A stretch of 64,000 bases of DNA. It comes from Allomuricauda sp. CAU 1633 (GTDB lineage: Bacteria; Bacteroidota; Bacteroidia; Flavobacteriales; Flavobacteriaceae). This document shows positions 34,046 to 48,006 of this stretch, piece after piece (position 1 is the stretch's first letter; each line of letters begins with the position of its first letter). The translations under genes and the position numbers were made by a program. The DNA is taken from positions 682,001-746,000 of the forward strand of contig NZ_JAFLNE010000002.1 of the NCBI RefSeq assembly GCF_017313225.1, read 5' to 3'. The notes beneath the pieces are model-generated. The model had not been told where the DNA came from. It worked only from the letters and a program-made list of their open reading frames with translations, and made no database searches.

Positions 34046-34828
34046 ATGGAATATGTAAAGAAACTTAAGGAAATTATAGAGGTGAAGCAAAGCGTAAGAA
34101 AATTGGCCCATAAAAAGAGCGTATTTCTTTTTCTGATAAGCAATAGGAATAGTCAGTTGGAATCCGATGCAAACAAGGATTATCAATTTCTTTTTCACTT
34201 GGAAGTTTTGGATGATACTGTTGTTGAAGGGCCATTGGTGATAGGTATGTACAATGGCGTATTTGGAAAGATGAATCTAGATATGGAGTATGATAGTTTT
34301 CAAAAGCAGTCCTTTTTGGATGATGCATTGAGCAATCAACTGGCCATTTACTTGACACAAGAGCTCTTATACAGACCAAGTGAAGATAAATGGTATTTGG
34401 AGAATATGGTTGTCACCATGGCCGATTATTTGGTGAAACAGATTTCAAGGAGCCTGGCCAAAAATGATGGGCATAAAATGGGTATAACACCATTTCAAAT
34501 GCAAAAATTAAAACATCATATCATAGAAAATATGGATCATCAGATTAGCACCACTGATTTGGCGTCCTTGGTAAAGTTAAGTGTGCATCATTTCATTAGA
34601 ATGTTCAAGCGGACTACTGGTGAGACTCCACAACAGTTTGCGAAACGGTTGAAGATGCAACGCGCTAAGGAGCTACTGCTGTACTCTGAAGATAACATCA
34701 TACAAGTGGGTATGGGCATAGGTTGTGATAATGCCAGTCATTTTACGCAATTGTTCAAAAGTAGCTACGGTATCACCCCGTTGAAGTTTAGGAAAGCACA
34801 TCGGCAAATGACCCGTGCTGCTTCTTAA
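34046..34828 (+). CDS. AraC-family transcriptional regulator
   Basis: 260 residues. The C-terminal AraC/XylS domain has both helix-turn-helices (ISTTDLASLVKLSVHHFIRM, NIIQVGMGIGCDNASHFTQL) and the signature tail SYGITPLKFRKAH. The N-terminal 160 residues show no recognisable sugar-binding cupin. It is divergent from the giant kinase gene, with 211 bases between the starts, and is the likely regulator of the genes around it. Two unannotated small ORFs follow on the same strand. Confidence 0.9.
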   Translation: MEYVKKLKEIIEVKQSVRKLAHKKSVFLFLISNRNSQLESDANKDYQFLFHLEVLDDTVVEGPLVIGMYNGVFGKMNLDMEYDSFQKQSFLDDALSNQLAIYLTQELLYRPSEDKWYLENMVVTMADYLVKQISRSLAKNDGHKMGITPFQMQKLKHHIIENMDHQISTTDLASLVKLSVHHFIRMFKRTTGETPQQFAKRLKMQRAKELLLYSEDNIIQVGMGIGCDNASHFTQLFKSSYGITPLKFRKAHRQMTRAAS

Positions 34829-34858
34829 TTATGAAGTTCAAATTCTAATTCTGTGAAA

Positions 34859-35002
34859 ATGAAATACCAAGGAAACTACAATGAGTTGAATGAGAAAAAA
34901 TTCAAAATGGTCAATGTCCATGAAGATTTTGCGCCACTTATGAAACGTATTAAGAGACATATTGAAGAATCGAGATTCGATTGTATCATTTGCTTGAATT
35001 AA
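34859..35002 (+). CDS. 47-residue small ORF
   Basis: ATG at 34859 to TAA at 35000-35002, 30 bases after the AraC stop. It encodes a charged peptide beginning MKYQGNYNELNEKKFKMVNV and ending ESRFDCIICLN. It has an A-rich leader (TGTGAAA) and ordinary codon use, but no recognised family. It could be a truncated gene, a small regulatory peptide or chance. Confidence 0.35.
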   Translation: MKYQGNYNELNEKKFKMVNVHEDFAPLMKRIKRHIEESRFDCIICLN

Positions 35003-35063
35003 CATTGACGGGAAACACCCCATAAAATCAGTATAGATCAATAATCGAAATCAAAATCCAATC

Positions 35064-35231
35064 ATGAAAATCAAAGAACTACTTGCAACAATTCCATTTA
35101 ATCACCGGGTATTGGATTTATTCCGTAATCAAATAAAAAGCACACCTGAGGTCAGCAGTCACAATACCAATTATTGTGATTCCGGTAATCAAATAGATTA
35201 TTACTGCGATGAGAATGGATGGTTTATTTGA
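35064..35231 (+). CDS. 55-residue small ORF with Cys-rich aromatic tail
   Basis: ATG at 35064 to TGA at 35229-35231. It begins MKIKELLATIPFNHRVLDLF and ends NYCDSGNQIDYYCDENGWFI. A helical leader-like N-terminal half followed by a short Cys- and aromatic-rich end recalls peptide precursors, but no modification enzyme is nearby, so that remains a guess. It is followed by the hairpin at 35312. Confidence 0.4.
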   Translation: MKIKELLATIPFNHRVLDLFRNQIKSTPEVSSHNTNYCDSGNQIDYYCDENGWFI

Positions 35232-35311
35232 AACCAGAAGTATCCGTTTTTATGTGACCTTATCATAAAACTTCACGCTCTAGCTTTAATGGGATTCTCT
35301 TCTTTTCCCAA

Positions 35312-35343
35312 AAATCACCTTTGGATCGTTCCTTGGGTGATTT
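35312..35343 (+). terminator. Terminator-like hairpin
   Basis: AAATCACC and GGTGATTT (8 bp) around a 16-base loop, followed by CTTATTTT. It would end transcription from the AraC gene and the small ORFs. Confidence 0.55.
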
Positions 35344-35563
35344 CTTATTTTAATTTGAAACTATTGAAATCTCTAAACACCGCAATTAAGAAGCAAACAT
35401 GGAACATCTCAGCTAAGATTGCACAAATTCAGCTATTTGCTGAGGCTACTTTTGGGTTAAATAACAATGGGATTACTAGATGACATCTTCCTCAACGCGA
35501 ATAAAATGTCGTTCTATAATCCATCGAAAAATTAAATGAACATTTAACGCAAAATCAAAAAAA

Positions 35564-36295
35564 ATGAAAAGTAAGATTACAAAAACTCTTTTATTGTTAG
35601 CTGTATTAATAAGTTCAAGCTACAAGCTCAGTGCGCAAATCCCGGATCCAGGATTCAAAGTGGATAAAACTACCGCAATTGTTATAACGGATCCACAAAA
35701 TGACTTCTTAAGTCCAGATGGAGTAACATGGGGTGTAATTGGAGAAAGTGTTATGAAGAACAAAACCGTGGAAAACTTGGAAACATTGTTCAAAATAGCA
35801 GAATCAAACGGTATAAAAGTATTTATTTCTCCCCACTATTATTACGAGCATGACCACAAATGGCAGTTTGAAGGAGCGCTTGAAAAATTAATGCATGATA
35901 TAGGGATGTTTGATCGCGGAGATCAATTGAACAAAGAAGGTTTTGAAGGATCTGGAGCCGATTGGTTGCCGAGATATAAAAAGTATATTGAGAAAGATTT
36001 TGTAACTGTTGTTGGTCCTCACAAAGTCTATGGTCCTGAGCAAAATGATTTGTCCCTTCAGTTGAGAAAGCAAAAAATTGACAAAGTGGTATTGGCCGGA
36101 ATGTCAGGTAACCTTTGTGTGGAATCCCATCTTCGAGAATTATTGGAAGACGGTTTTGAAGTAGCTGTTGTAAAGGACGCTACAGCTTCGGCTGTCGCTC
36201 CAGGTTTTGATGGCAATATAGCGGCCGAAATCAACTATAGGTTTGTTGCCAGCCATGTATATACTACTAAAGAGTTTGAATCGCTCTTTAAATAG
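35564..36295 (+). CDS. Secreted isochorismatase-like cysteine hydrolase
   Basis: 243 residues. A signal peptide (TLLLLAVLISSSYKLSAQ) precedes an isochorismatase-fold domain: the Asp of the triad in AIVITDPQNDFLSPDG, the catalytic Cys in VLAGMSGNLCVESHLRELL, and a conserved cis-peptide region before it. Such enzymes hydrolyse amides (nicotinamidase, N-carbamoylsarcosine amidase) or isochorismate. Export to the periplasm is atypical and suggests an extracytoplasmic amide or ester substrate. It is likely monocistronic. Confidence 0.88.
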   Translation: MKSKITKTLLLLAVLISSSYKLSAQIPDPGFKVDKTTAIVITDPQNDFLSPDGVTWGVIGESVMKNKTVENLETLFKIAESNGIKVFISPHYYYEHDHKWQFEGALEKLMHDIGMFDRGDQLNKEGFEGSGADWLPRYKKYIEKDFVTVVGPHKVYGPEQNDLSLQLRKQKIDKVVLAGMSGNLCVESHLRELLEDGFEVAVVKDATASAVAPGFDGNIAAEINYRFVASHVYTTKEFESLFK

Positions 36296-36446
36296 GCTGT
36301 GCAATTGTGTTTAGTGTGTTGGGGCAGGGTGAAAACCCTGTCCTTGTGCATCATGGTGCACTAAGGTGGTTTAAAGAGAATTCTTTTGGGTGTATTCTGT
36401 AACATTGTTGCCATTGAATAGTTTCCGGATTAAATTCTTTATTGCT

Positions 36447-37274
36447 ATGAAAAATAGTTCTCCCTTCTTTTTAGGTGTAATTATAATTTTTACAATTTTT
36501 TTTATAATGCTCATCCCTATCGATGTGTTTCTTTCCGATGGTTATTGGTCACCATTTCAGATTGAATATACATCGCTGGCTATCAAAATGTCATTGATTT
36601 TTATAGTGGCCATGATAGGGATAAAAAGGTTAAAACTTTTTTCCTTAGCTGGGTTGTCCCGAAACAACAAGTGGACTTCTAAGCTCCTAAATACAATACC
36701 CTTTTACCTATTTCTCATAGGTATTTCTTCTGTGATTGGTAAAGATTTATCAGGAATAAGTATAACTAATCTTTTATTATTGCTTTTCGCCTGTTTATCC
36801 GTTGGATTTGCGGAGGAATTTATGTTTAGAGGTTTTCTTCAACCATTTTTTATCCAAAAGTATGTATCAAAGAAAAATGGTCTTTTTAAAAGTATTATGT
36901 TTTCGGCAATGTTCTTTGGAGCTTCCCATCTAATTAACTTAATGGTCAATGACAATGTTCCACAAGTGCTAGGGCAATCAATTTATGCCATATTGATTGG
37001 CTTCTTCTTTGGAGTACTTTTATTGAAAACGAATAAATTGTTTCCTATAGCTATCACACATGGGCTCATCAATTTTTTCTTTTTGTTTAATTCACTTCCA
37101 AGTATAAAAAGCAGTATGCCAATAGACATTGAACCTCAAACGAACTCTACATTGGTTGAACAAATACAAGTGAGTTTGCTGCCTATCATTATGTTTTTGC
37201 CACTTTTCATTGTCGGTTTGTTGGTGTTTAAGAAAATTGACAAAGAAAAGATCCTAGACAAGTTAAATGGATAG
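36447..37274 (+). CDS. CPBP-family intramembrane glutamic endopeptidase
   Basis: About 275 residues from the ATG at 36447 (MKNSSPFFLG); an upstream GTG in the same frame lacks leader character. Eight or so hydrophobic segments are present. The conserved motifs are FAEEFMFRGFLQ (EExxxR), FFGASHLINL (FxxxH) and PIAITHGLINFFF (H-x3-N), the active-site set of the CPBP (Abi/Rce1-like) family. Roles range from bacteriocin immunity to processing of membrane-anchored peptides. The substrate is unknown. Confidence 0.88.
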   Translation: MKNSSPFFLGVIIIFTIFFIMLIPIDVFLSDGYWSPFQIEYTSLAIKMSLIFIVAMIGIKRLKLFSLAGLSRNNKWTSKLLNTIPFYLFLIGISSVIGKDLSGISITNLLLLLFACLSVGFAEEFMFRGFLQPFFIQKYVSKKNGLFKSIMFSAMFFGASHLINLMVNDNVPQVLGQSIYAILIGFFFGVLLLKTNKLFPIAITHGLINFFFLFNSLPSIKSSMPIDIEPQTNSTLVEQIQVSLLPIIMFLPLFIVGLLVFKKIDKEKILDKLNG

Positions 37275-37743
37275 AAAAACTGGCCATTGCGTAACCCTCC
37301 CTAAAAATTGGACAGGTTGGTATTTAGTCAATAATGTGGCATGTTAATTTTTCCTTTCGGGCACCAACTTTACCATTTTGGAGTCATATTATAGATTTAT
37401 AACCATTTGATATTCAGTCTTTTTTGTTTTAGAGCGTAGCCTTCACCTCGCGCCAAGCATTATAAAATTGAATTAAAAGGCTATCTATCTCTTCAAACCT
37501 TAAACTATCATCCCTAGGCTCCGGGCTATCCAATCGTGTTTGAATGATAGAATGGCAGTATATTTTTAAGAGGGTGGCCCAAGATTTATTGATGTTTGAA
37601 CATGGAGGAGTAAAGACCTGAATAGCCAAAGAAAATTCTACTTTACAACCTGTAACTTCAAATCGTATTCTTCAGATATCCTTTGGTTATAGAATGGGCT
37701 AATTGGTTTGAAATCACGTATTCGAACGTGTTTGCCATGAGCA
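37275..37743. other. Intergenic region before the Rieske operon
   Basis: 469 bases. It holds a minus-strand frame (37429-37629) of uncertain status and the promoter region of the Rieske operon. No perfect TAnnTTTG box was seen close to 37744. No terminator with a strong stem was recognised after the CPBP gene. Confidence 0.4.
37429..37629 (-). CDS. Uncertain small ORF
   Basis: 66 residues from a TTG codon at 37629, open further upstream to about 37665 without an ATG. It ends IDSLLIQFYNAWREVKATL. The composition is protein-like but no family is recognised. It may be the tail of a decayed gene, since the only available start codons are weak. Confidence 0.2.
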   Translation of the reverse strand: MAIQVFTPPCSNINKSWATLLKIYCHSIIQTRLDSPEPRDDSLRFEEIDSLLIQFYNAWREVKATL

Positions 37744-39417
37744 ATGACTTTATTTGTCACATACGCAAGAAAATCGGGTATGGGCAACAAAACCAAAATT
37801 GAACAACGAATTCAGGTAGTGGAAGTTTCCAAATTGGAAAGTAAAGTTCCATTTTATGCCAAGGTGAACACCATTGACCTAGTCGTGATCAAACACGAAA
37901 AAGGGATTTCAATACTTTATGGTAGATGCCATCACAGAGGTGCTTTGCTTGCGGATGGGTATATCGATGGAAAAAACCTGATATGTGGGTTACATGGATG
38001 GGACTATAGATACGAAACAGGCATTAGCGAATACAATAATGCTGAGCGACTTCACAAGTTTAGCGAAACTATAGAAAATGGTTTTCTATATGTTGATGCC
38101 AATGAAATTGATGAGTTTGAATGGAAACACCCCCAACCCTTTAATACAGACAAGTATCTAGGGTTATATGCGGACACAAACCCAGAATCCACGGAACCAT
38201 ATACATTACAGATAAAAGAGCTAGCTCAAAATGGACTGAAGAATATTGGACATCATGGCTTTTCGGCATCAATGGGCGTAGATCGTGATACTTTGCCCAA
38301 GTGGGAAAACCTACAGTTTTTACCGGCCCAGTTGGCTAGAAAACCATTGTTGGATGATGCTGAGGTTTCAACCAAGGTAATCATAGGTCCAAATGCAAAT
38401 AGACCATTGGAACTGGATATTCCTTTGTTTGTAAGTGATATGAGTTTCGGAGCCTTATCCAGAGAAGCAAAGATTGCACTGGCCAAAGGGGCAGAAATGT
38501 CAGGTACGGGTATTTGTTCAGGAGAGGGGGGGATGTTGCCCGAAGAACAGCAAAACAATTCAAGGTATTTCTATGAACTGGCATCTGCCAAGTTTGGTTT
38601 TTCATGGGATAAGCTCAAACAAGTACAAGCCTTTCATTTTAAGGGAGGCCAAGGCGCAAAGACGGGAACAGGAGGGCATTTGCCGGGAAATAAAGTTAGC
38701 AAGGAAATAGCCAAAGTGAGGGGTTTGCAAGCGGGTGAAACGGCCATATCACCTTCAACATTTTCAGAATTTAATGGAGTCCAGGATTTCAGGAATTTTG
38801 CGGATAAGGTAAGACAACACACAGATGGAATCCCCATAGGATTTAAGATTGCGGCCAGCCATATAGAAGAAGACCTTCAGTTTGCCCTTGATGTAGGCGT
38901 GGACTATATCATATTGGATGGTAGGGGAGGCGGTACGGGTTCTGCCCCAACTATTTTAAGGGACAATATCAACATACCGACCATTCCGGCTTTGGCCAGG
39001 GCCAGAAAATATTTGGATCAAGCGAAAGCCACAGGAGTTTCCCTCATTATAACGGGTGGACTTCGGGTTGCGGATGATTTTGTAAAAGCCTTGATGTTGG
39101 GTGCCGATGCTATTGCCGTTTCCAATTCTGCATTGCAGGCAATCGGATGTTTGGGAATGCGGGCCTGTGGCACCAATAATTGCCCAGTGGGAATTGCCAC
39201 GCAAAAAGAATCCCTCAGGGAACGGTTGATCATTGCCTCTTCAGCAAAACAATTGCACAACTTTTTTGATGCTTCAAACAGTTTGATTGAAGTAGTGGCC
39301 AGAGCATGTGGTTACGACGATATATCAAAATTCAACCAGGAGGATTTGACCACCTTCAATTGGGATATGCACAAGTTGACAGGAATAAAATACGCGGGAA
39401 TCACGACACATGTTTGA
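37744..39417 (+). CDS. Rieske [2Fe-2S]-glutamate synthase-like FMN/[3Fe-4S] fusion protein
   Basis: 557 residues. Residues about 20-115 form a Rieske domain: C62-x-H64 in GRCHHRGALLADG and C81-x2-H84 in CGLHGWDYR. From about 180 a glutamate-synthase large-subunit-like barrel follows, with FMN-binding segments VDYIILDGRGGGTGSAP and LIITGGLRVADDF. The [3Fe-4S] Cys pattern is GCLGMRACGTNNCPVG (C-x5-C-x4-C). The amidotransferase domain is missing. Archaeal and bacterial stand-alone GltB-like proteins exist; the fusion to Rieske is unusual. The ATG at 37744 is used, although one at 37780 is possible. It is the first gene of a six-gene operon and overlaps the next by 8 bases. Confidence 0.9.
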   Translation: MTLFVTYARKSGMGNKTKIEQRIQVVEVSKLESKVPFYAKVNTIDLVVIKHEKGISILYGRCHHRGALLADGYIDGKNLICGLHGWDYRYETGISEYNNAERLHKFSETIENGFLYVDANEIDEFEWKHPQPFNTDKYLGLYADTNPESTEPYTLQIKELAQNGLKNIGHHGFSASMGVDRDTLPKWENLQFLPAQLARKPLLDDAEVSTKVIIGPNANRPLELDIPLFVSDMSFGALSREAKIALAKGAEMSGTGICSGEGGMLPEEQQNNSRYFYELASAKFGFSWDKLKQVQAFHFKGGQGAKTGTGGHLPGNKVSKEIAKVRGLQAGETAISPSTFSEFNGVQDFRNFADKVRQHTDGIPIGFKIAASHIEEDLQFALDVGVDYIILDGRGGGTGSAPTILRDNINIPTIPALARARKYLDQAKATGVSLIITGGLRVADDFVKALMLGADAIAVSNSALQAIGCLGMRACGTNNCPVGIATQKESLRERLIIASSAKQLHNFFDASNSLIEVVARACGYDDISKFNQEDLTTFNWDMHKLTGIKYAGITTHV

Positions 39418-40639
39418 GATAATAATTGGAATAGTGGCCTTGGCGGCATTGTTGAGCTTCATCAATGCAAAAGCACTTAAATTACCTGAAACCATTGGGG
39501 TAATGCTACTCTCCATTGCCGTTTCATTGTTTCTGGGAACTTCTTCATTTTTACACCGGACCACATTTGCGCAGATCTGCCAAATAGTGGATCAGATAGA
39601 GTTTAGGGAAATCCTGTTTGATTTTTTACTTGGGATATTGTTGTTCGCTGGATCAATCCATGTGGATTTAAGCTATTTGCTTAAACAAAAATTGCCAATA
39701 ATGCTCTATGCAACCCTTGGGGTAATCCTTTCAACATTTCTGATAGGCACACTTTTTTATTATGTGACCTTAGGTGTGGGACATCCCATGGATTATTTGT
39801 TCTGTTTGGTTTTTGGTGCTTTGATTTCCCCAACCGATCCCGTAGCTGTGTTGGCCATTTTAAGAAAGGCCAACGCACCAAAAAGAACTGAGATAAAGGT
39901 AGTGGGGGAATCCCTTTTCAACGATGGGGTGGGGATAGTGGTTTTCCTGTCCATTTATTCCTTGGCCACTATGATGCAAGAGTTTGAGCTATCACACATT
40001 GTCAAAGAATTTTCCCTAGAGGCAGGCGGAGGAATACTTATGGGTGCATGTTTGGGTTTTTTGGGAAGGACATTGGTTCAAAAGGTGGTCTCGGAACCCA
40101 TCATTGCTGTTCATATCTCCCTAGCAATCGTCTTGGGTGGTTATAGCCTCTCCTCATTGTTGCATGTGTCCGGGGCCCTTGCCATGGTTGTGGCAGGATT
40201 GATCATGGGACAGGGACTCAGTTTGGAAAAAACTCCGGAAAAACTCAAACAACATATGGGTATTTTTTGGAACGTATTGGATGAAATTTTCAATGCGGTG
40301 TTATTTGTTCTGATTGGCATCGAGGTCATTTCCTTAAAGTTTGAACTGGTTTATCTGCCTATTTCCATACTATCCATTTTGATTATAATCCTATCAAGAT
40401 ATGTTGTGATTTTTGTTTTGGAACCCTTTTTACCAAAGGCACAAAGAGCTGGCAAGAAAGAGAGAATGGTCCTTACCTGGGCTGGATTAAGAGGGGGAAT
40501 ATCCATTGCATTGGCATTGACCTTGCCCGAAAGCGAAATAAGGGATGCCATTGTTTTTACAACATACATTGTGGTAGTTTTTTCCATTGTGGTACAGGGC
40601 CTTACCATAGAAAAACTTCTTATGCGCACATATAAATAG
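39410..40639 (+). CDS. CPA1-type Na+/H+ antiporter
   Basis: 409 residues with about 12 hydrophobic segments. FGALISPTDPVAVLAIL and VGESLFNDGVGIVVFL are the ion-binding motifs (ND pair) of NhaP/NHE-type cation:proton antiporters, and LTWAGLRGGISIALALTLP is the conserved C-terminal Arg motif. It exchanges Na+ or K+ for protons at the inner membrane. Its presence inside a redox operon (8-base overlap before it, 6-base gap after it) suggests that pH, sodium or membrane potential is linked to the flavo-Rieske enzymes. Confidence 0.92.
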   Translation: MFEIIIGIVALAALLSFINAKALKLPETIGVMLLSIAVSLFLGTSSFLHRTTFAQICQIVDQIEFREILFDFLLGILLFAGSIHVDLSYLLKQKLPIMLYATLGVILSTFLIGTLFYYVTLGVGHPMDYLFCLVFGALISPTDPVAVLAILRKANAPKRTEIKVVGESLFNDGVGIVVFLSIYSLATMMQEFELSHIVKEFSLEAGGGILMGACLGFLGRTLVQKVVSEPIIAVHISLAIVLGGYSLSSLLHVSGALAMVVAGLIMGQGLSLEKTPEKLKQHMGIFWNVLDEIFNAVLFVLIGIEVISLKFELVYLPISILSILIIILSRYVVIFVLEPFLPKAQRAGKKERMVLTWAGLRGGISIALALTLPESEIRDAIVFTTYIVVVFSIVVQGLTIEKLLMRTYK

Positions 40640-40645
40640 AAAACA

Positions 40646-42595
40646 ATGAAGAAAGAAATGGTTTGGCATAGAGTATTGGACAACAAGCGGGAGCTACCCG
40701 AAGGTAGGGTAAAAACGGTGACTGTGGACAACCGAGACCTATGCCTCACCCATTTCAAGGGAAAATTTTCCGCTTTGGATAACAAATGCCCACATCAAGG
40801 AGGGCCATTGGGAGAGGGTTCCATCGAAAATGGTATGCTAAGATGCCCTTGGCATGGTTGGGATTTTCATCCATGTACGGGAAAACCTCCAGGAGGCTTT
40901 GATGATGGTGTGGAAACTTTCGTGGTTAAGGAAGAAGGAAACCAAGTGTATGTTGCCATTGCTTCACAAAAGGAACATCAGCCAACCATTGCCGATGAGA
41001 TGATGGAAACCATGGTGAATTGGGGAGTTGAGACTGTTTTTGGAATGGTTGGACACAGCAATCTAGGAGTAGCCGATGCTATGAAAAGGTTGGAACAAAA
41101 AGGAAAGCTGAAATATTATGGAATCCGACATGAAGGCGCGGCCGCATTTGCTGCATCCGGCTATGCAAAACTAACAGGTAAACCAGCTGCGTGTCTGGGA
41201 ATAGCAGGTCCCGGGGCGACCAATATGTTTACGGGAATGTGGGATGCCAAAGTAGACCGTGCTCCCATGCTTGTGCTTTCAGGGCAAGTCGAAAATCAGG
41301 TTTTTGGAACGGGAGCTTTTCAAGAAGTCGATTTGGTAAGGGCATTCCAAACCGTTGCAGATTTCAATCACGCCGTTCAAGAAAATTCAAAACACAGCGA
41401 ACTCATGTCCCTGGCCATCAAAAACGCATTGTTGAAAAGGGAAGTTTCGCACATTACATTTCCCGATGAGGTGGCATTTGCTCCTAAGCAATCCAATTAT
41501 AGGCCCCAAAATCCTGATGGGAGAATAACACCGACCAATATTGGCCCACCCCGTCTAATGCTGGATAAAGCCATCAAAATGCTTGGGCAAAGCAGACGAC
41601 CTGTGATCATAGTTGGGCATGGGGCACGGTTTCATATGGAGCAAATAATCCGTTTTGCCAAAATTTTGAAGTGCCCTGTAATTACAACCTTCAAAGGAAA
41701 GGGACAAATCCCTGACAATCATGAATTGGGTTGTGGCGTATTGGGCCGAAGTGGGACCCCGATTGCTTCATATTTTATGAATGAAAGTGATCTGATCTTG
41801 GTATTGGGGGCTTCTTTTTCCAACCACACAGGAATCACTCCTAAAAAACCACTGATCCAAATAGATTTTGATCCTATGGCTCTCAGCAAATTCCATAAGG
41901 TCGATGCCGCTTTGTGGGGAGAAATTTCAGAAACCCTCTCCTTGATAGAGGAACGCACCCAAAATGCCATCGATACGGTTGACCAAAGGCCAGAAATTGC
42001 ACAGCGATGGTCTATTTGGAGAGAAGAAAAAGAAAGTAGACTTAAGGATAATCGTGGTCATGGCATAAGTTCCATTGCCGTGTTTGATGCCATGAACCGT
42101 ATAACGCCCGAAGATGCCATAATTGCTGTTGATGTGGGAAACAACACCTATTCCTTTGGACGTTATTTTGAAGCCAAACAGCAATCGGTATTGATGTCGG
42201 GCTATCTTGGATCCATAGGTTTTTCGTTACCAGCGGCCATGGGGGCTTGGGCAGCGCAAGGAGATAAAAGACCCGTTTGGTCCGTTTCAGGTGACGGGGG
42301 ATTTGCCCAATATATGGCAGAGATGATGACCTTGGTGAAATACAACATGAACATAAAGCATGTACTGTTGAACAATTCCGAACTGGGAAAAATCTCCAAG
42401 GAACAAAAAGCGGCCAATCTTCAGGTTTGGCAAACCGGACTCCACAATCTGAATTTTGCTGAATATGCAAAAAACTGTGGTGCTTTGGGAATTAGGGTTG
42501 AAGATAGAAAAGATTTGGAATCCGCAATGATACAGTTAAGGAACCACGATGGTCCTGGACTGTTGGATGTAAGATGCGATGTAAACCTTATATAA
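40646..42595 (+). CDS. Rieske domain fused to ThDP-dependent 2-oxoacid decarboxylase-like enzyme
   Basis: 649 residues. Residues 1-105 are a Rieske domain with C48-x-H50 (NKCPHQGGPLGEG) and C67-x2-H70 (RCPWHGWDFH). From about 112 the three domains of an acetolactate-synthase/pyruvate-oxidase-type enzyme follow: the catalytic Glu163 in GIRHEGAAAFAASGYAKLTG, the middle domain (RRPVIIVGHGARF), and the ThDP-binding SGDGGFAQYMAEMMTL near 548 with LLNNSELGKIS about 25 residues on. The reaction is probably decarboxylation of a 2-oxoacid with electron release through the [2Fe-2S] cluster; the substrate cannot be told. Confidence 0.9.
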   Translation: MKKEMVWHRVLDNKRELPEGRVKTVTVDNRDLCLTHFKGKFSALDNKCPHQGGPLGEGSIENGMLRCPWHGWDFHPCTGKPPGGFDDGVETFVVKEEGNQVYVAIASQKEHQPTIADEMMETMVNWGVETVFGMVGHSNLGVADAMKRLEQKGKLKYYGIRHEGAAAFAASGYAKLTGKPAACLGIAGPGATNMFTGMWDAKVDRAPMLVLSGQVENQVFGTGAFQEVDLVRAFQTVADFNHAVQENSKHSELMSLAIKNALLKREVSHITFPDEVAFAPKQSNYRPQNPDGRITPTNIGPPRLMLDKAIKMLGQSRRPVIIVGHGARFHMEQIIRFAKILKCPVITTFKGKGQIPDNHELGCGVLGRSGTPIASYFMNESDLILVLGASFSNHTGITPKKPLIQIDFDPMALSKFHKVDAALWGEISETLSLIEERTQNAIDTVDQRPEIAQRWSIWREEKESRLKDNRGHGISSIAVFDAMNRITPEDAIIAVDVGNNTYSFGRYFEAKQQSVLMSGYLGSIGFSLPAAMGAWAAQGDKRPVWSVSGDGGFAQYMAEMMTLVKYNMNIKHVLLNNSELGKISKEQKAANLQVWQTGLHNLNFAEYAKNCGALGIRVEDRKDLESAMIQLRNHDGPGLLDVRCDVNLI

Positions 42596-43225
42596 ATGTT
42601 GGTCTTGATACATATAGTGTTGGTGATTTTGGCAATCTATTTTTGCATTGGGTTATGTTTTGGTATCTATTTTGTACTTGCCGGGGCGGCCAAAATAGAC
42701 CCACTTATAAAGGAAAGCAAATTCAATGTTCGATTTTTGCTGGCACCGGGAAGCGTGGCCACTTGGCCCGTTTTGATGTTGAGACTACTTGGGAAATCAA
42801 CAGGTGCCAAAGGGGTAAACTTGATTAAAACGCATCGAATCATCTGGTTGTCCATTGCAATCATTGTTCCCGGCCTATTGTTTTTATCCATAGAGAACCT
42901 AAGTTTTCAAAATATTGATGTACCAACTTCAGACAGACCACAAAGTGAGTATGAAAAAGTTTTGAAATCCAAGGAGAACAGATTCTTGATAGCATCAATT
43001 GTGCACGTTCAGGATAACAAGATGCAACTGGACGTGACAGTGAAAAAGTCTTTGGAGTATCCTACCCTGACCCTATACGCCATTGGAGAAAATGGAGATC
43101 GAAATAAACTGATTGGGCAAATTGGCTCAAAGGGAACATACCGCTTTACAATAGAAGATAATATAAATGGCATTTTACTTTATGATGCCCTTAAAAAGAT
43201 AACAGTAACAAAATTTGAATTCTGA
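42596..43225 (+). CDS. Small membrane protein of the Rieske operon
   Basis: 209 residues, starting directly after the ThDP-enzyme stop. One hydrophobic segment lies at 2-30 (LIHIVLVILAIYFCIGLCFG, continuing IYFVLAGAAK) and another near 83-103 (IIWLSIAIIVPGLLFLSIEN). Between them is a short loop with FLLAPGSVATWPVLMLRLL. The soluble C-terminal part (FLIASIVHVQDNKMQLDVTV) is beta-rich and probably extracytoplasmic. No family recognised. The tight fit in the operon suggests a subunit or anchor for the redox proteins. Confidence 0.75.
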   Translation: MLVLIHIVLVILAIYFCIGLCFGIYFVLAGAAKIDPLIKESKFNVRFLLAPGSVATWPVLMLRLLGKSTGAKGVNLIKTHRIIWLSIAIIVPGLLFLSIENLSFQNIDVPTSDRPQSEYEKVLKSKENRFLIASIVHVQDNKMQLDVTVKKSLEYPTLTLYAIGENGDRNKLIGQIGSKGTYRFTIEDNINGILLYDALKKITVTKFEF

Positions 43226-44262
43226 TGGGACTGGACTATCAATTTGTATTGTGGAACAGAAATAAAAAGAGATATGACATCATCATTGTCTTTGGAATGT
43301 TGTTCTATCTCTTCCTGTTTACGGGTTTAACATTGATATTCAAGTCACAAACAACAATGGAAACCCTTTTGATACGCGCTTTTGGAACCTTGGCATTGCT
43401 GATGTTGCATATCATCTTGGCAATAGGGCCACTGTGTAGGTTGAATACAGCTTTTTTGCCCTTGTTATATAATCGACGGCATTTGGGGGTCAGTATGTTT
43501 TTGGCTGCGTTGGTTCATGGGGGATTTTCCTTGTTTCAATTCCATGCCTTGGGCAATACAAATCCAATTTACTCGCTTTTTACCTCAAACATGGATTATG
43601 GCTCACTCACCAATTTCCCGTTTCAGGTTATGGGCTTTTTTGCATTGCTCATTCTGTTTGCCATGGCGGCAACAAGTCATGATTTTTATTTGAAGAATCT
43701 TTCGCCCAAAATTTGGAAAGGACTACACCTAATGGTCTATATAGCATATGTTTTCATATTGTTCCATGTTTTCTTGGGAGCTTTTCAGCAAGAAACATCT
43801 GTACTTACCGTGTCTTTTATGGGATTGGGTTTTCTAAGCCTTGTTACCTTGCACATTATAACCGGAATCAGGGAAGCTGGAAAGGAAAAACAGGAATATG
43901 AAATCAATGTAGATCAATGGTTGAAGGTATGCCATGTGTCCGATATAAAAACGAACAGGGCTAAAATATGCACTATTGATAATGGGCCAGTGGCCATCTA
44001 CAAATACGATGGAAAAATTTCCGCCATACATAATACCTGCAAACACCAGGGAGGCCCTCTTGGAGAGGGGAAGGTCATAGATGGATGCATTACCTGCCCA
44101 TGGCATGGGTATCAGTATTTGCCTCATAACGGACAATCGCCACCACCTTTTACAGATAAGGTCCAAACCTATCAACTTAAACTGGAAAAAGGTATTATTT
44201 ATTTAAACCCGAGAGCTTTGCAGGAAGGGACTTACGTGGAACCGATACAGATAGAAAAATGA
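43225..44262 (+). CDS. Ferric-reductase-like heme membrane protein with C-terminal Rieske domain
   Basis: 345 residues. Residues 1-225 hold about six membrane segments with paired His residues (LLMLHIILAIGP, NRRHLGVSMFLAALVHGGFS, GLHLMVYIAYVFILFHVFLG), as in ferric-reductase-like b-heme proteins. Residues about 235-335 are a Rieske domain: NTCKHQGGPLGEGK (C-x-H) and ITCPWHGYQYLPHNG (C-x2-H). Such a protein could pass electrons across or into the membrane from a soluble Rieske enzyme. Its ATG overlaps the preceding stop (TGATG), and it overlaps the next gene by 4 bases. Confidence 0.88.
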   Translation: MGLDYQFVLWNRNKKRYDIIIVFGMLFYLFLFTGLTLIFKSQTTMETLLIRAFGTLALLMLHIILAIGPLCRLNTAFLPLLYNRRHLGVSMFLAALVHGGFSLFQFHALGNTNPIYSLFTSNMDYGSLTNFPFQVMGFFALLILFAMAATSHDFYLKNLSPKIWKGLHLMVYIAYVFILFHVFLGAFQQETSVLTVSFMGLGFLSLVTLHIITGIREAGKEKQEYEINVDQWLKVCHVSDIKTNRAKICTIDNGPVAIYKYDGKISAIHNTCKHQGGPLGEGKVIDGCITCPWHGYQYLPHNGQSPPPFTDKVQTYQLKLEKGIIYLNPRALQEGTYVEPIQIEK

Positions 44263-45056
44263 GGGAAGATAAAGAGTTTTATGTGGGCTATTTTGATGAA
44301 ATGGGCCCAAATACGAAAAGAAATATCAAGGGATTCATTGTGCTTGTGGTCTTGATAGTAGTATTCTGCGCCATGGTCTTTGGTTTGTCGCAGCGACCAT
44401 TTGCGAACAGTACATTCGAATTTGGCTCTGATACCGAAATTACTGGGATTTACCATGAAATGCCCTATCCTATGTTACGTGTTGAAGTTGCCGAAAATGA
44501 ATACAAGAACATCGTTCTTTTAGGTTTTGGCAAATCGAGCATAAACCCCTTTTTGAAAAAGATTAGAAGGAAGGGAACCCGACTTACGGGAAAGATTTTG
44601 ACCATCAAAGGAAATTTGATCTATTATAACGGGAAAACCTTGATTCAACTTACCGATGAAGAAAATGTGAGCATTAAAAACCAGTTGTTTGTTTCAGAAT
44701 TACCAATAAAGGATGAGATGGGCAGGGTTTCTTTTATGGGGGAAATTGTAGACCCCAAATGTTATTTTGGGGTAATGAAACCCGGTTATGGTAAAATTCA
44801 CCGTAGTTGTGCTGTGCGGTGTATTTCTGGAGGTATTCCTCCGGTTTTAGCCACTAAGGATAATGAAGGGAACGATAGATATGTACTATTGACCGATTCC
44901 TCTGGAAACCCAATCAATGAAGCCATTTTAAACTACATTGGAAAACCCGCCAAAGTAACCGGTCACTTGGAAAGAATGGAGGATTGGGATTTTTTGCGTC
45001 TCAATACAGGTGACATTGAAGTTTTGGATCAAGAATCCGGAATTTACGTACAGTAA
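44259..45056 (+). CDS. Membrane-anchored protein with Cys/His signature, last gene of Rieske operon
   Basis: 265 residues. One membrane segment at about 25-44 (FIVLVVLIVVFCAMVFGLS). The C-terminal half has the strongly patterned stretch GEIVDPKCYFGVMKPG, then GKIHRSCAVRCISGGIPPVL. Three Cys and a His in one short span suggest a metal or cluster site, or disulfides. Beta-rich regions flank it, like two OB-fold-like copies (ITGIYHEMPYPMLRV and PAKVTGHLERMEDWDFLRL). I do not recognise a named family. As the last gene of the operon it is probably an extracytoplasmic partner of the heme/Rieske protein. Confidence 0.75.
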   Translation: MREDKEFYVGYFDEMGPNTKRNIKGFIVLVVLIVVFCAMVFGLSQRPFANSTFEFGSDTEITGIYHEMPYPMLRVEVAENEYKNIVLLGFGKSSINPFLKKIRRKGTRLTGKILTIKGNLIYYNGKTLIQLTDEENVSIKNQLFVSELPIKDEMGRVSFMGEIVDPKCYFGVMKPGYGKIHRSCAVRCISGGIPPVLATKDNEGNDRYVLLTDSSGNPINEAILNYIGKPAKVTGHLERMEDWDFLRLNTGDIEVLDQESGIYVQ

Positions 45057-45187
45057 ATCTTCAAAACAGTTACAATAAGGTAAACTTCTGAAATCCTAAC
45101 GTAACCAACTGAAATAGAAAGAGATTATTTTTATATTTATGGGCATCTTGCGCTTTTTTGGGCAATCCATTTTTTTCTTTCTCTTTC

Positions 45188-46252
45188 ATGAACATAGGAA
45201 TTCAGAATATTGTACCTATCCTGATTGTCTTTCAGAGCACTCTTTTTGCGATTTACCTGTTCACCTATAAGGGCCCAAAAAAAGTCAGTAATCGAATCTT
45301 GGCTTTTTTCTTGGCTGTTCTTGCCCTACAGTTTCTTGCCCTTTTGAACCTAATGGGGCAGACCCGTTTGGAAGAAGTGTTTGCCATACGATGTATTTTT
45401 GGGTTTCTATATGGTCCACTCCTGTATTTGTACAGCAATTCCCTTATCTATGATTATTTTAAGCTAAAAAAAAAGGATGTAGTACATTTTATACCCGCCC
45501 TGGTCATTTTGGTGGCACCAATGCTGGGCCATTATCTATGTGATAGAGCAGTGCCCCTGATGTATGTCATTTTGATTGGCTATATACTATTTGCAATTGG
45601 GGAAATCATTTCCTACCGAAGAATTATGCTGCACACCCATTCTTCCATAGATCGGGTGGATTTGAGTTGGGTGATTTGGACGATGACTATTTTTTGTTCT
45701 GCACTTCTCATGGACATTGTCAGCCAATATTTGATTAACATTAATAGGGTATTAGATATACCACTAGTACATATTTTTGTGCTGTTCTTGGTGAACTGGA
45801 TGTTCTATAAAGGATTGAAGCAGCCCCAGATATTTTCAGGCATTTCCAGAATAGATGAGATGATTGTGCGCCAGCGACTGGAAAAGGATGAAAAGGACAT
45901 GGAGGGCATAGATCTGGAGATGGAAAGAATTGAAAAGTTTATGGAGTCAGATCAACCCTTTATTGACTCAGATTTATCCCTTAACGGGCTGGCCCATAAA
46001 CTACAGATGCCAGCACGGAAATTGTCCAATGTCATCAATCATGGGTTTCAGAATAATTTTATGGGCTTCATCAATGATTACCGTATTGAATTGGCCAAGG
46101 AAAGGTTTGAAAATCAATCTGACCCCAAGGAGACCATATTGGAGGTGATGTTCGATGTAGGTTTTAATTCCAAATCCTCTTTCAATACCATTTTTAAGGA
46201 AAAGACCGGGTTGACACCTTCTGAGTACAAGAAAAAGGTTTCCTCTATATAG
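45188..46252 (+). CDS. Membrane-bound AraC-family transcriptional regulator
   Basis: 354 residues from the ATG at 45188 (MNIGIQNIVPILIV); a frame extending upstream to a TTG adds ten residues without leader character. Seven hydrophobic segments fill residues 1-225, followed by a cytoplasmic AraC domain with ISDLSLNGLAHKL-like first helix-turn-helix (DSDLSLNGLAHKLQMPARKL) and second (ILEVMFDVGFNSKSSFNTIF), ending EKTGLTPSEYKKKV. This 7TM-AraC layout is common in Bacteroidota. It follows the Rieske operon by 131 bases on the same strand and is its likely sensor-regulator. Confidence 0.9.
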   Translation: MNIGIQNIVPILIVFQSTLFAIYLFTYKGPKKVSNRILAFFLAVLALQFLALLNLMGQTRLEEVFAIRCIFGFLYGPLLYLYSNSLIYDYFKLKKKDVVHFIPALVILVAPMLGHYLCDRAVPLMYVILIGYILFAIGEIISYRRIMLHTHSSIDRVDLSWVIWTMTIFCSALLMDIVSQYLININRVLDIPLVHIFVLFLVNWMFYKGLKQPQIFSGISRIDEMIVRQRLEKDEKDMEGIDLEMERIEKFMESDQPFIDSDLSLNGLAHKLQMPARKLSNVINHGFQNNFMGFINDYRIELAKERFENQSDPKETILEVMFDVGFNSKSSFNTIFKEKTGLTPSEYKKKVSSI

Positions 46253-46383: not shown

Positions 46384-46896
46384 ATGATCAATAAAGTGAC
46401 CCTTGAACATTTGAACCAGCTTAGAGGAATATTGGTACAGCTGACCGACGAACAATTTGCCGAAAAGCTATCTATAATGGAAGGTGCCTCGATTGGAAGC
46501 CATACTAGACATGTGCTCGAGTTCTATAACTGTTTGTTCAATGCCATTGAGCAAGGGGAGCTTTGTTACGATCGAAGACAGCGTGACAAGGAAATGGAAG
46601 TTAGTGTGAACAAGTGCATTTCGTCCATTGATGGCATATCTGAAATATTGCAATCAGGCCCAAAGGATTTTCAGCTTCTGCTCACTGCTGATTTTTCGTT
46701 AGATGAAGAATCTGGGCAAAAAATTGCCACGCAAACTACATACCACCGGGAATTGCTGTACAATATTGAACATATGGTACATCATTTGGCCATCATTCGG
46801 ATAGGTGTTAAGTCCATGCCGTTTCCTGTTCATTTTGATGATACTGTGGGAGTGGCAGCATCAACCATTAGAAACAAAAAAATATGTGTACGGTAA
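46384..46896 (+). CDS. DinB-family four-helix protein
   Basis: 170 residues. The first metal-ligand His lies in IGSHTRHVLEFYNCLF, and two more in YNIEHMVHHLAIIRIG, giving the three-His metal triad of the DinB/YfiT family, typically Ni or Zn. Members include thiol transferases and damage-inducible proteins of unknown role. It is the first gene of an overlapping run (13 bases into the NRDE gene). Confidence 0.85.
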   Translation: MINKVTLEHLNQLRGILVQLTDEQFAEKLSIMEGASIGSHTRHVLEFYNCLFNAIEQGELCYDRRQRDKEMEVSVNKCISSIDGISEILQSGPKDFQLLLTADFSLDEESGQKIATQTTYHRELLYNIEHMVHHLAIIRIGVKSMPFPVHFDDTVGVAASTIRNKKICVR

Positions 46897-47582
46897 GCTA
46901 TGTTCCATTTAAGGAGGGGTATATTTTAACCTCAAACCGAGATGAAAATCCGCTAAGGGTCACCAAACTGCCCAATAAGATTGCTTTGGAAAACGGAACC
47001 ACGATTACCACCCCTACAGATGTGGCTGGAGGTGGGTCTTGGATAGCATTTGATGAAACTGGGAGAGTAGCCTGTCTGTTGAACGGCGCATTTATAAGGC
47101 ATATCCGCAAATCCCATTATCGGGAGAGTAGGGGCAGATATGTAATTGAAGCTTTTGAAAGAACTTCTTTTGAGGATTTTGCCCAATCTGCTTATTTGGA
47201 AGACATTGAACCCTTTACACTATTACTGATCGAACCGAAGAGAATACAAAAACTTATATGGGATGGGGACAAGAAATATCTATGGGAATTGTCTTCCGAC
47301 TCGGTCCATCTATGGTCGTCGGCTACCCTGTATACTTCCAAGGATCAGCAGGAGAAAGAACATTACTTTATTAACACGCTCAATGACAATGGTATTGGAG
47401 AAGAACAGATTCTTCAAATACATGGAAGAGACCACAATACTCCATTCATTATAAATCGCCACAATGTTAAAACGGTTAGCATAACACAATTGGTTTACAA
47501 TGGAGAGAAATCAAACTTGGAATATATTTTAAAAAAAGAACGTAATGAGAAAATTGTACCTACTAGCTTTCATCTTAGCTAG
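46884..47582 (+). CDS. NRDE/TANGO2-family protein
   Basis: 232 residues. The N-terminal MCTVSYVPFKEGYILTSNRD carries the Cys2 and the NRDE signature (SNRDENPLR), with GGGSWIAFDETGRVACLLNG following. The exposed N-terminal Cys makes it a possible Ntn-like amidohydrolase; the family is linked to heme or lipid handling in other organisms, but the bacterial role is not settled. It overlaps the preceding DinB gene by 13 bases and the following YHS gene by 38 bases. Confidence 0.88.
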   Translation: MCTVSYVPFKEGYILTSNRDENPLRVTKLPNKIALENGTTITTPTDVAGGGSWIAFDETGRVACLLNGAFIRHIRKSHYRESRGRYVIEAFERTSFEDFAQSAYLEDIEPFTLLLIEPKRIQKLIWDGDKKYLWELSSDSVHLWSSATLYTSKDQQEKEHYFINTLNDNGIGEEQILQIHGRDHNTPFIINRHNVKTVSITQLVYNGEKSNLEYILKKERNEKIVPTSFHLS

Positions 47583-48006
47583 TTTTAATGGATTGTATGC
47601 ACAAAAAACCGAGAAGAAGCACATTAACTATGAAAATGGGCTGGCTCTTCAGGGGTATGATGCTGTAAGTTATTTTATGGGAAAGCCCATGAAAGGAAAA
47701 TCTGAATTTTTGGCAAACCATAATGGAGTCAAATACTTATTTGGAAGCGCTGAGAACCAAAAAAAATTTATGGAATCTCCAGAAAAATATCTCCCCAAAT
47801 ATGGGGGATGGTGTGCCTATGCTGTGGGAGCCAAAAATGAATTGGTGAACGTAAATCCCGAAACATTTAAGATCATCAATGGGGAGCTTTATCTTTTTTA
47901 CAATGCCTATTTCAACAACACATTGAAGAAATGGAACGCAAATGAGAAAGAGCTTCAAACAAAAGCAGAGGAAAACTGGGAGCATATTTTCAAAGATGAC
48001 CAATAA
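47545..48006 (+). CDS. Secreted YHS-domain protein
   Basis: 153 residues. A signal peptide (MRKLYLLAFILASFNGLYAQ) is followed by one YHS-like domain: LALQGYDAVSYFMGKPMKG, NHNGVKYLFGSAENQKKFM and KYGGWCAYAVGAKNEL. It is a paralogue of the protein at 23908-24396. The coding frame begins inside the end of the NRDE gene, so that 38 bases encode two proteins; the signal peptide confirms the start. Confidence 0.88.
   Translation: MRKLYLLAFILASFNGLYAQKTEKKHINYENGLALQGYDAVSYFMGKPMKGKSEFLANHNGVKYLFGSAENQKKFMESPEKYLPKYGGWCAYAVGAKNELVNVNPETFKIINGELYLFYNAYFNNTLKKWNANEKELQTKAEENWEHIFKDDQ

Follow-up and report, generated by a model that had tools for sequence, protein, structure and literature searches.

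We analyzed a stretch of 64,000 nucleotides from Allomuricauda sp. CAU 1633 (the window; positions 682001-746000 of contig NZ_JAFLNE010000002.1, or C12, in a genome of 4.26 Mb). It carries six adjacent plus-strand open reading frames (ORFs), P1 to P6, which include three different Rieske fusions and a membrane heme protein (Table 1, in window positions). Successive genes are joined by an 8-base overlap, a 6-base gap, no gap, a 1-base overlap and a 4-base overlap, exactly as proposed in an earlier note made from the sequence alone. The families which that note assigned to P1, P2, P3 and P5 agree with the Pfam and NCBIfam domains. Its three Rieske fusions with distinct partners are real, and the Rieske ligands are kept in homologues. 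Of the genome's five Rieske matches, three fall within the operon.

Table 1. Genes of the operon and of its downstream flank
Feature	Position	Strand	Basis
P1: N-terminal Rieske [2Fe-2S] and glutamate-synthase-like flavin mononucleotide (FMN)/[3Fe-4S] domain	37744..39417	+	Pfam, aligned glutamate synthase (GltS) cluster ligands
P2: CPA1-type cation/H+ antiporter, optional member	39410..40639	+	Pfam, NCBIfam
P3: N-terminal Rieske and thiamine diphosphate (ThDP) enzyme nearest pyruvate oxidases	40646..42595	+	Pfam, NCBIfam, PoxB alignment
P4: membrane protein, two small proteins fused	42596..43225	+	Comparison with relatives
P5: six-helix ferric-reductase/MsrQ-type heme domain and C-terminal Rieske, predicted dioxygenase-ferredoxin type	43225..44262	+	Pfam, His pattern, AlphaFold2 (AF2)
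P6: N-terminal transmembrane helix and two OB folds, Cys/His motif in the second	44259..45056	+	AF2, motif
AraC-family regulator	45158..46252	+	Pfam; same sequence cluster adjoins P1 in L059 and L072
DinB-like, TANGO2/NRDE-like and YHS (seleno)protein-family genes	46384..48006	+	Recur beside the operon in relatives

The membrane part of the operon is centered on P5, which matches Ferric_reduct (3.4e-12) and Rieske (2.4e-17) in Pfam. We compared 90 P5 loci after removing L017-L020 and L022 as duplicates of L045, L043, L066, L041 and L046; L021 lacks P5 and stands outside this set. The named loci comprise the top 80 of at least 580 P5 matches, so that shares favor close relatives, and nine further loci were picked by a P6 match. 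In the AF2 model of P5 (mean predicted local distance difference test score, pLDDT, 79.8), the membrane part contains six long helices and precedes the Rieske domain. Residues R84, H98, H168 and H181 are invariant in 90/90 loci, as are H86, H107 and H152. An Arg with three His is also the pattern given for YedZ and STEAP1 in PMC3591440. The Rieske motif of P5 is CKHQG/CPWHGY, and the ligand pattern C-x-H...C-x2-H occurs in all 90. Dioxygenase ferredoxins head the listed fold matches, with electron-transfer complexes of carbazole dioxygenase ferredoxin and oxygenase among them, and the modeled Rieske domain is of this dioxygenase-ferredoxin type. The preceding P4, described in the earlier note as a small membrane protein, is indeed a membrane protein, but it is a fusion of p4n (~70 amino acids) and p4c (~130 amino acids), which are separate proteins in most relatives. 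Pfam and NCBIfam scans of P4 gave no match.

The presence of a membrane-anchored Cys/His protein, P6, was borne out by the AF2 model, which predicts one transmembrane helix and two OB folds (mean pLDDT 81.3). The second OB domain carries the motif K-C-x3-4-M-x4-9-H-x2-C-x3-C in 86/86 clustered sequences. No Pfam or NCBIfam match of P6 passed the cut-off, the Pfam matches being weak only, and a sequence search of the PDB gave no match. A fold search retrieved generic OB folds (SSB, for example) at TM-scores near 0.2. Small, apparently secreted relatives consisting of the second domain occur in L011-L013, L015 and L016; the three that were scanned matched nothing in Pfam and nothing above cut-off in NCBIfam. 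In L015, the neighbors of the single-domain protein resemble superoxide dismutase and IscA by eye.

The two soluble Rieske fusions carry different enzyme domains. P1, 557 amino acids long, matches PF01645 (2.8e-86) and Rieske (2.4e-11), and an amidotransferase domain is not among its Pfam matches. The [3Fe-4S] cysteines of glutamate synthase (C-x5-C-x4-C) are kept in P1 and in 51/51 clustered homologues. At the positions aligned to Q934, K937, R957 and Q943 of chain 2vdc_A, P1 keeps the first three residues and has His in place of the last; we take these four to be the residues of the 2-oxoglutarate site that the literature numbers Q969, K972, R992 and Q978. The Rieske ligand pattern is present in 49/51 clustered P1 sequences. 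Homologues mostly align only from residue 20-23 onward, so the true start of P1 may be Met13 (37780). In two P1 homologues of other lineages (41% and 48% identity) rubredoxin replaces the Rieske domain and rubrerythrin adjoins (L136:9331-10830, L138:4201-5790). The small domain thus acts like an exchangeable electron carrier, and rubredoxin and Rieske appear interchangeable on the same flavoprotein. The P1 homologue in L137 has an N-terminal stretch that looks rubredoxin-like by eye, and there the rubrerythrin neighbor is absent.

P3 matches the N, M and C domains of TPP_enzyme as well as Rieske (8.6e-16) in Pfam. Its best NCBIfam match is the pyruvate oxidase PRK08611, at 395 bits under the cut-off of 742. 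P3 aligns along residues 3-525 of E. coli PoxB (3ey9, 3eya), with 47 residues beyond the aligned end in PoxB versus 7 in P3. Among 54 clustered homologues, 273 positions are at least 97% conserved; the RHE motif (the context of the catalytic Glu), GDG..N and the Rieske ligand pattern are found in all 54.

The earlier note described the Rieske motifs as near-identical. Those of P3 (CPHQG/CPWHGW) and P5 are close, but that of P1 is CHHRG/CGLHGW, and the P1 Rieske domains form a clade of their own. In a tree of 12 Rieske domains each from P1, P3 and P5, built on few alignment columns, the P1 domains form a supported group (99/99) and the P3 domains another (90/99). The P5 grouping is weak (bootstrap 52/99) and deeper joins are unsure. 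The tree does not support an origin of near-identical Rieske domains via recent shuffling.

Same-strand runs around P5 contain P6 in 83 of 90 loci, p4n in 66, p4 in 58, P3 in 47, P1 in 41 and P2 in 30. Over whole loci, P3 is found in 54, P1 in 51 and both in 42. The loci come from Flavobacteriaceae, Saprospiraceae, Cyclobacteriaceae, Chitinophagaceae, KSB1 and Acidobacteria, among the best 80 matches. As the set recurs in many genera and several families, chance assembly is excluded. Across 296 genomes of the phylum, 10 have P5 and the same 10 have full-length P6, while P3 occurs in 8 and P1, with its Rieske part covered, in 37; these counts exclude 10 of 47 P1 matches lying off the Rieske part and 6 of 16 one-domain P6 matches. 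P5 and P6 are together in 10/10 (Fisher P = 8e-19), P1 is present in 9/10 P5 genomes (3e-8), and P3 occurs with P5 in 5/8 (7e-7) and with P1 in 7/8 (2e-6), all P-values ignoring kinship. The unit suggested by the earlier note, which had proposed a check of co-occurrence across Bacteroidota, thus recurs, and the association is strong even between unlinked genes. In G183 and G254, P1, P3 and P5 lie on three different contigs, so co-occurrence is not merely linkage, and in G175 the contig of P1 carries neither P3 nor P5. From a list of 13 loci with a P3-less P5 neighborhood, 12 genomes were searched for P3 in trans; several genomes in this search and in the search for P1 described below are metagenome-assembled and may be incomplete or mixed. 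P3 was found elsewhere in 8/12, at 61-67% identity. In G361 and G362 (Acidobacteria Mor1), P1 and P3 are adjacent to each other, away from the P5 locus that was fetched.

In some relatives a different flavoprotein stands in for P1. An NADPH-dependent FMN reductase family protein (PF03358; cluster c30) occurs in 8/90 loci and never with P1 (L033, L044, L046, L056, L060, L064, L067, L109). It is found in 0/42 loci with P1 and P3 versus 8/12 with P3 and no P1 (Fisher P = 5e-7). It precedes P3 on the same strand in 8/8 cases, in the place otherwise taken by P1. A Rieske-GltB protein was not found in these eight genomes at E 1e-40, and in two of them the sole GltB-like match, at 34-35%, lies off the Rieske part.

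We suggest that P4, P5 and P6 form an MsrQ-like transmembrane heme relay, to whose Rieske tail, in the cytoplasm, P1 and P3 dock, a reading to which we give an even chance. The six-helix heme-b domain of P5 would bridge the inner membrane between the Rieske tail on the cytoplasmic side and the outer face, with P6, the anchored OB/Cys-His protein, as its dedicated partner there. P3 (pyruvate-oxidase-like, with ThDP and probably FAD) and P1 (GltB-like, with FMN and [3Fe-4S]) would be soluble cytoplasmic redox enzymes that exchange electrons with the P5 tail by Rieske-to-Rieske contact, most likely discharging substrate electrons into P5. P2 might balance charge or pH. The domain architecture, conserved ligands, synteny, genome-level co-occurrence and the FMN reductase in place of P1 are observed, whereas the binding of heme and flavins, the side of the membrane that each domain faces, the docking, the direction of electron flow, the substrates and the role of P2 are inferred. 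The electron path proposed in the earlier note is partly supported, its source in 2-oxoacid decarboxylation and its coupling to ions being hypothetical. Charges near the helices, judged by eye, would place the Rieske domain of P5 in the cytoplasm and the P6 domains outside. We favor this relay because P1 and P3 each carry a Rieske domain, with P1 replaceable by a flavoprotein, and because the P5 Rieske belongs to the ferredoxin type which, in dioxygenases, donates electrons to other Rieske domains. It is also favored because P5 is the sole ferric-reductase-domain match (PF01794) in the genome and because the operon is without an MsrP-type gene, no match to PF00174 being present among its genes. 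In ferredoxin-oxygenase couples, Rieske ferredoxins are known to hand electrons to a Rieske domain. A common electron path that runs through P5 is the most parsimonious interpretation.

Several observations weigh against such a relay. Separate occurrence of P1, P3 and P5-P6 was named in the earlier note as a ground for refutation, and they do occur separately, although they are found together more often than expected by chance and retain their Rieske motifs. Genomes without P5 make up 28/37 of those with P1 and 3/8 of those with P3, and at the thresholds applied G219 carries P5-P6 but no P1 or P3. G328 (L021) has P1 and P3 at the locus and no P4-P6 there. Neither P1 nor P3 is present in 28/90 P5 loci, some of which are ended by contig ends, and no P3 was found in 4/12 of the genomes searched for it. 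A gene for a subtilase with a CBM48-like C-terminus adjoins the core in 9/90 runs. It lies upstream of p4-P5, with P1 and P3 absent, in eight (L084, L086, L093, L097, L099, L101, L104, L107), and downstream of P6, with both P1 and P3 present, in L089. At the protein level, the substrate loop PPPHHD of GltS is changed to PSTFSE in P1, and the three Rieske sets are not one recent family in the tree. P6 is without a characterized homologue in the PDB and Pfam searches. Finally, no ferric-reductase fold is among the 50 P5 structure matches listed, which are all Rieske proteins, so this fold rests on Pfam and the His pattern.

Electrons could also flow in the opposite direction, from the membrane or periplasm via P6 or quinol and P5 to the Rieske domains, and on to P1 for a reaction like reductive amination and to P3 for carboligation or another reductive use. 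Glutamate synthases run reductively with ferredoxin-type donors, and P1 keeps three of the four residues aligned with the presumed 2-oxoglutarate site. However, P3 is nearest to oxidative pyruvate oxidases and is without the C-terminal tail by which PoxB binds the membrane, as would be expected if the Rieske domain were an electron exit instead. The replacement of P1 by an FMN reductase family protein is likewise a better fit to an electron-input enzyme. We consider reverse flow unlikely.

A variant closer to PoxB, in which P5 hands the electrons of P3 to menaquinone and P6 is structural or a cofactor chaperone, would carry the same flux as PoxB, along which P3 aligns, and MsrQ-type proteins are linked to the quinone pool. 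P6, though, is in 10/10 P5 genomes of the 296, while P3 is missing from 5/10; this constancy argues that the conserved exit is P6. We consider the quinone-linked variant quite improbable. We give equally little credence to an island of co-regulated genes, in which P1, P3 and P4-P6 would be independent redox proteins under one regulator with no common electron path. The frequent P1 without P5, the solitary P5-P6 of G219, the variable neighbors and the separate lineages of the Rieske domains would all fit such an island, but co-occurrence in trans, Acidobacteria included, and the retention of Rieske ligands in nearly all homologues of P1, P3 and P5 speak against it. A Rieske oxygenase chain is rejected, as the ten proteins scanned at 34046-46252 had no Pfam match to an oxygenase alpha subunit with a mononuclear iron domain, and MsrPQ proper is rejected for the lack of an MsrP-type gene in the operon.

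The operon is an accessory trait, as P3 is present at 67% identity or more in 7/36 same-genus genomes, the window's own and G328 included. Quick trees of P3 and P5 from 41 loci, in which some branches are long, place the window copy apart from the cluster of named Flagellimonas copies, which hints at horizontal transfer. The P5 tree pairs it with L072 (Saprospiraceae, support 89), which has the same AraC-linked gene order, and the P3 tree groups it with Aquimarina- and Dokdonia-type copies.

Among the neighbors, P2 matches PF00999 (9e-63) and is found in 35/90 whole loci; its presence in only 30/90 same-strand runs makes the antiporter an optional member. An ion-channel gene lies beside P2 in 8 runs, all from Flavobacteriaceae, with PF07885 in the one scanned. 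YHS (27 of the 90 runs), DinB (23), c249 (21), LysE (21) and NRDE (20) also recur. The c249 family is a distant relative of DUF5996 (hhalign probability 98.9). We fetched 20 stretches around P1 away from P5, and gene calling labeled P1 in 19; these contain P5 or P6 in none, P3 in one (L114) and c249 in five. DUF5996 lies near P1 in L120 and L121 and adjoins P3 in L132. In the window, the recurrent gene set extends beyond 45056 with AraC, DinB, NRDE and YHS to 48006. All four are near the operon in L072 and three in L059, and the TANGO2 match was seen in the L018 homologue of the NRDE-like gene. The flavobacterial promoter consensus was not found upstream of P1. An anti-phage defense system is rejected, with 0/8 window proteins matching PADLOC models at 1e-5. 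A GNAT gene (PF13444 in L030) and in some loci a PlsC-type acyltransferase follow P5-P6 in L029, L030, L031, L100 and L106, and L030 additionally has DinB and an alpha/beta-hydrolase-VTT fusion. These acyltransferases are reminiscent of lipid acylation pairs. A two-helix membrane protein resembling PycTM in PADLOC models (L050:16716-17345) belongs to a cluster found in 7/90 runs and is possibly unrelated.

A wider form, possible but doubtful, is an undescribed transmembrane redox pathway in which unrelated cytoplasmic metabolic enzymes of ThDP and GltB types, or an FMN reductase in place of the GltB type, would discharge via Rieske plugs into one Rieske-heme membrane protein. This protein would in turn reduce a new membrane-anchored OB/Cys-His family outside the inner membrane, with cation/proton exchange as an option. 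If true, MsrPQ and bacterial NOX would be joined by a new class of electron relay from cytoplasm to periplasm, and Rieske domains would be interchangeable plugs on central-metabolic enzymes. The P6 family, found beside P5 in Bacteroidota, KSB1 and Acidobacteria, would gain a function.

The earlier note knew of no described system with this gene set, and we found no description of the set or its fusions in the open-licence PubMed Central literature. A ferric-reductase-domain model with Rieske was, however, already catalogued in 2013 as M4, which also includes FMN (PMC3591440, PLoS One, figure 3 legend). M4 shares the ferric-reductase domain and Rieske with P5, and no gene neighborhood, partners or function appear in the passages on it. 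P3 shares the RHE context, GDG..N and the ThDP N, M and C domains with PoxB, but adds an N-terminal Rieske domain, has a shorter tail and scores under the NCBIfam cut-offs. P1 shares the FMN barrel and the cluster cysteines with the large subunit of glutamate synthase (1ea0, 2vdc), but is without the amidotransferase domain, has an altered substrate loop and adds a Rieske domain. The P5 Rieske is of the same ferredoxin type as in carbazole dioxygenase-type ferredoxin-oxygenase couples, whereas the operon is without an oxygenase. The closest counterpart is MsrQ (YedZ), which like P5 has a membrane heme domain with Arg in place of the first canonical His and three His, and which has a cytoplasmic donor and a periplasmic partner, as proposed for P5. 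MsrQ uses a separate flavin reductase, whereas P5 has a C-terminal Rieske domain instead; MsrPQ has MsrP, whereas the partner of P5 would be P6. The one PF00174 match of the genome is a 406-amino-acid ORF on another contig, followed by a CxxCH protein and sulfite-dehydrogenase-like by eye. Known relatives exist for all parts except P4, P6 and the c249/DUF5996 family, and we regard the system as a new form of a membrane electron relay of known type, the MsrQ-like relays.

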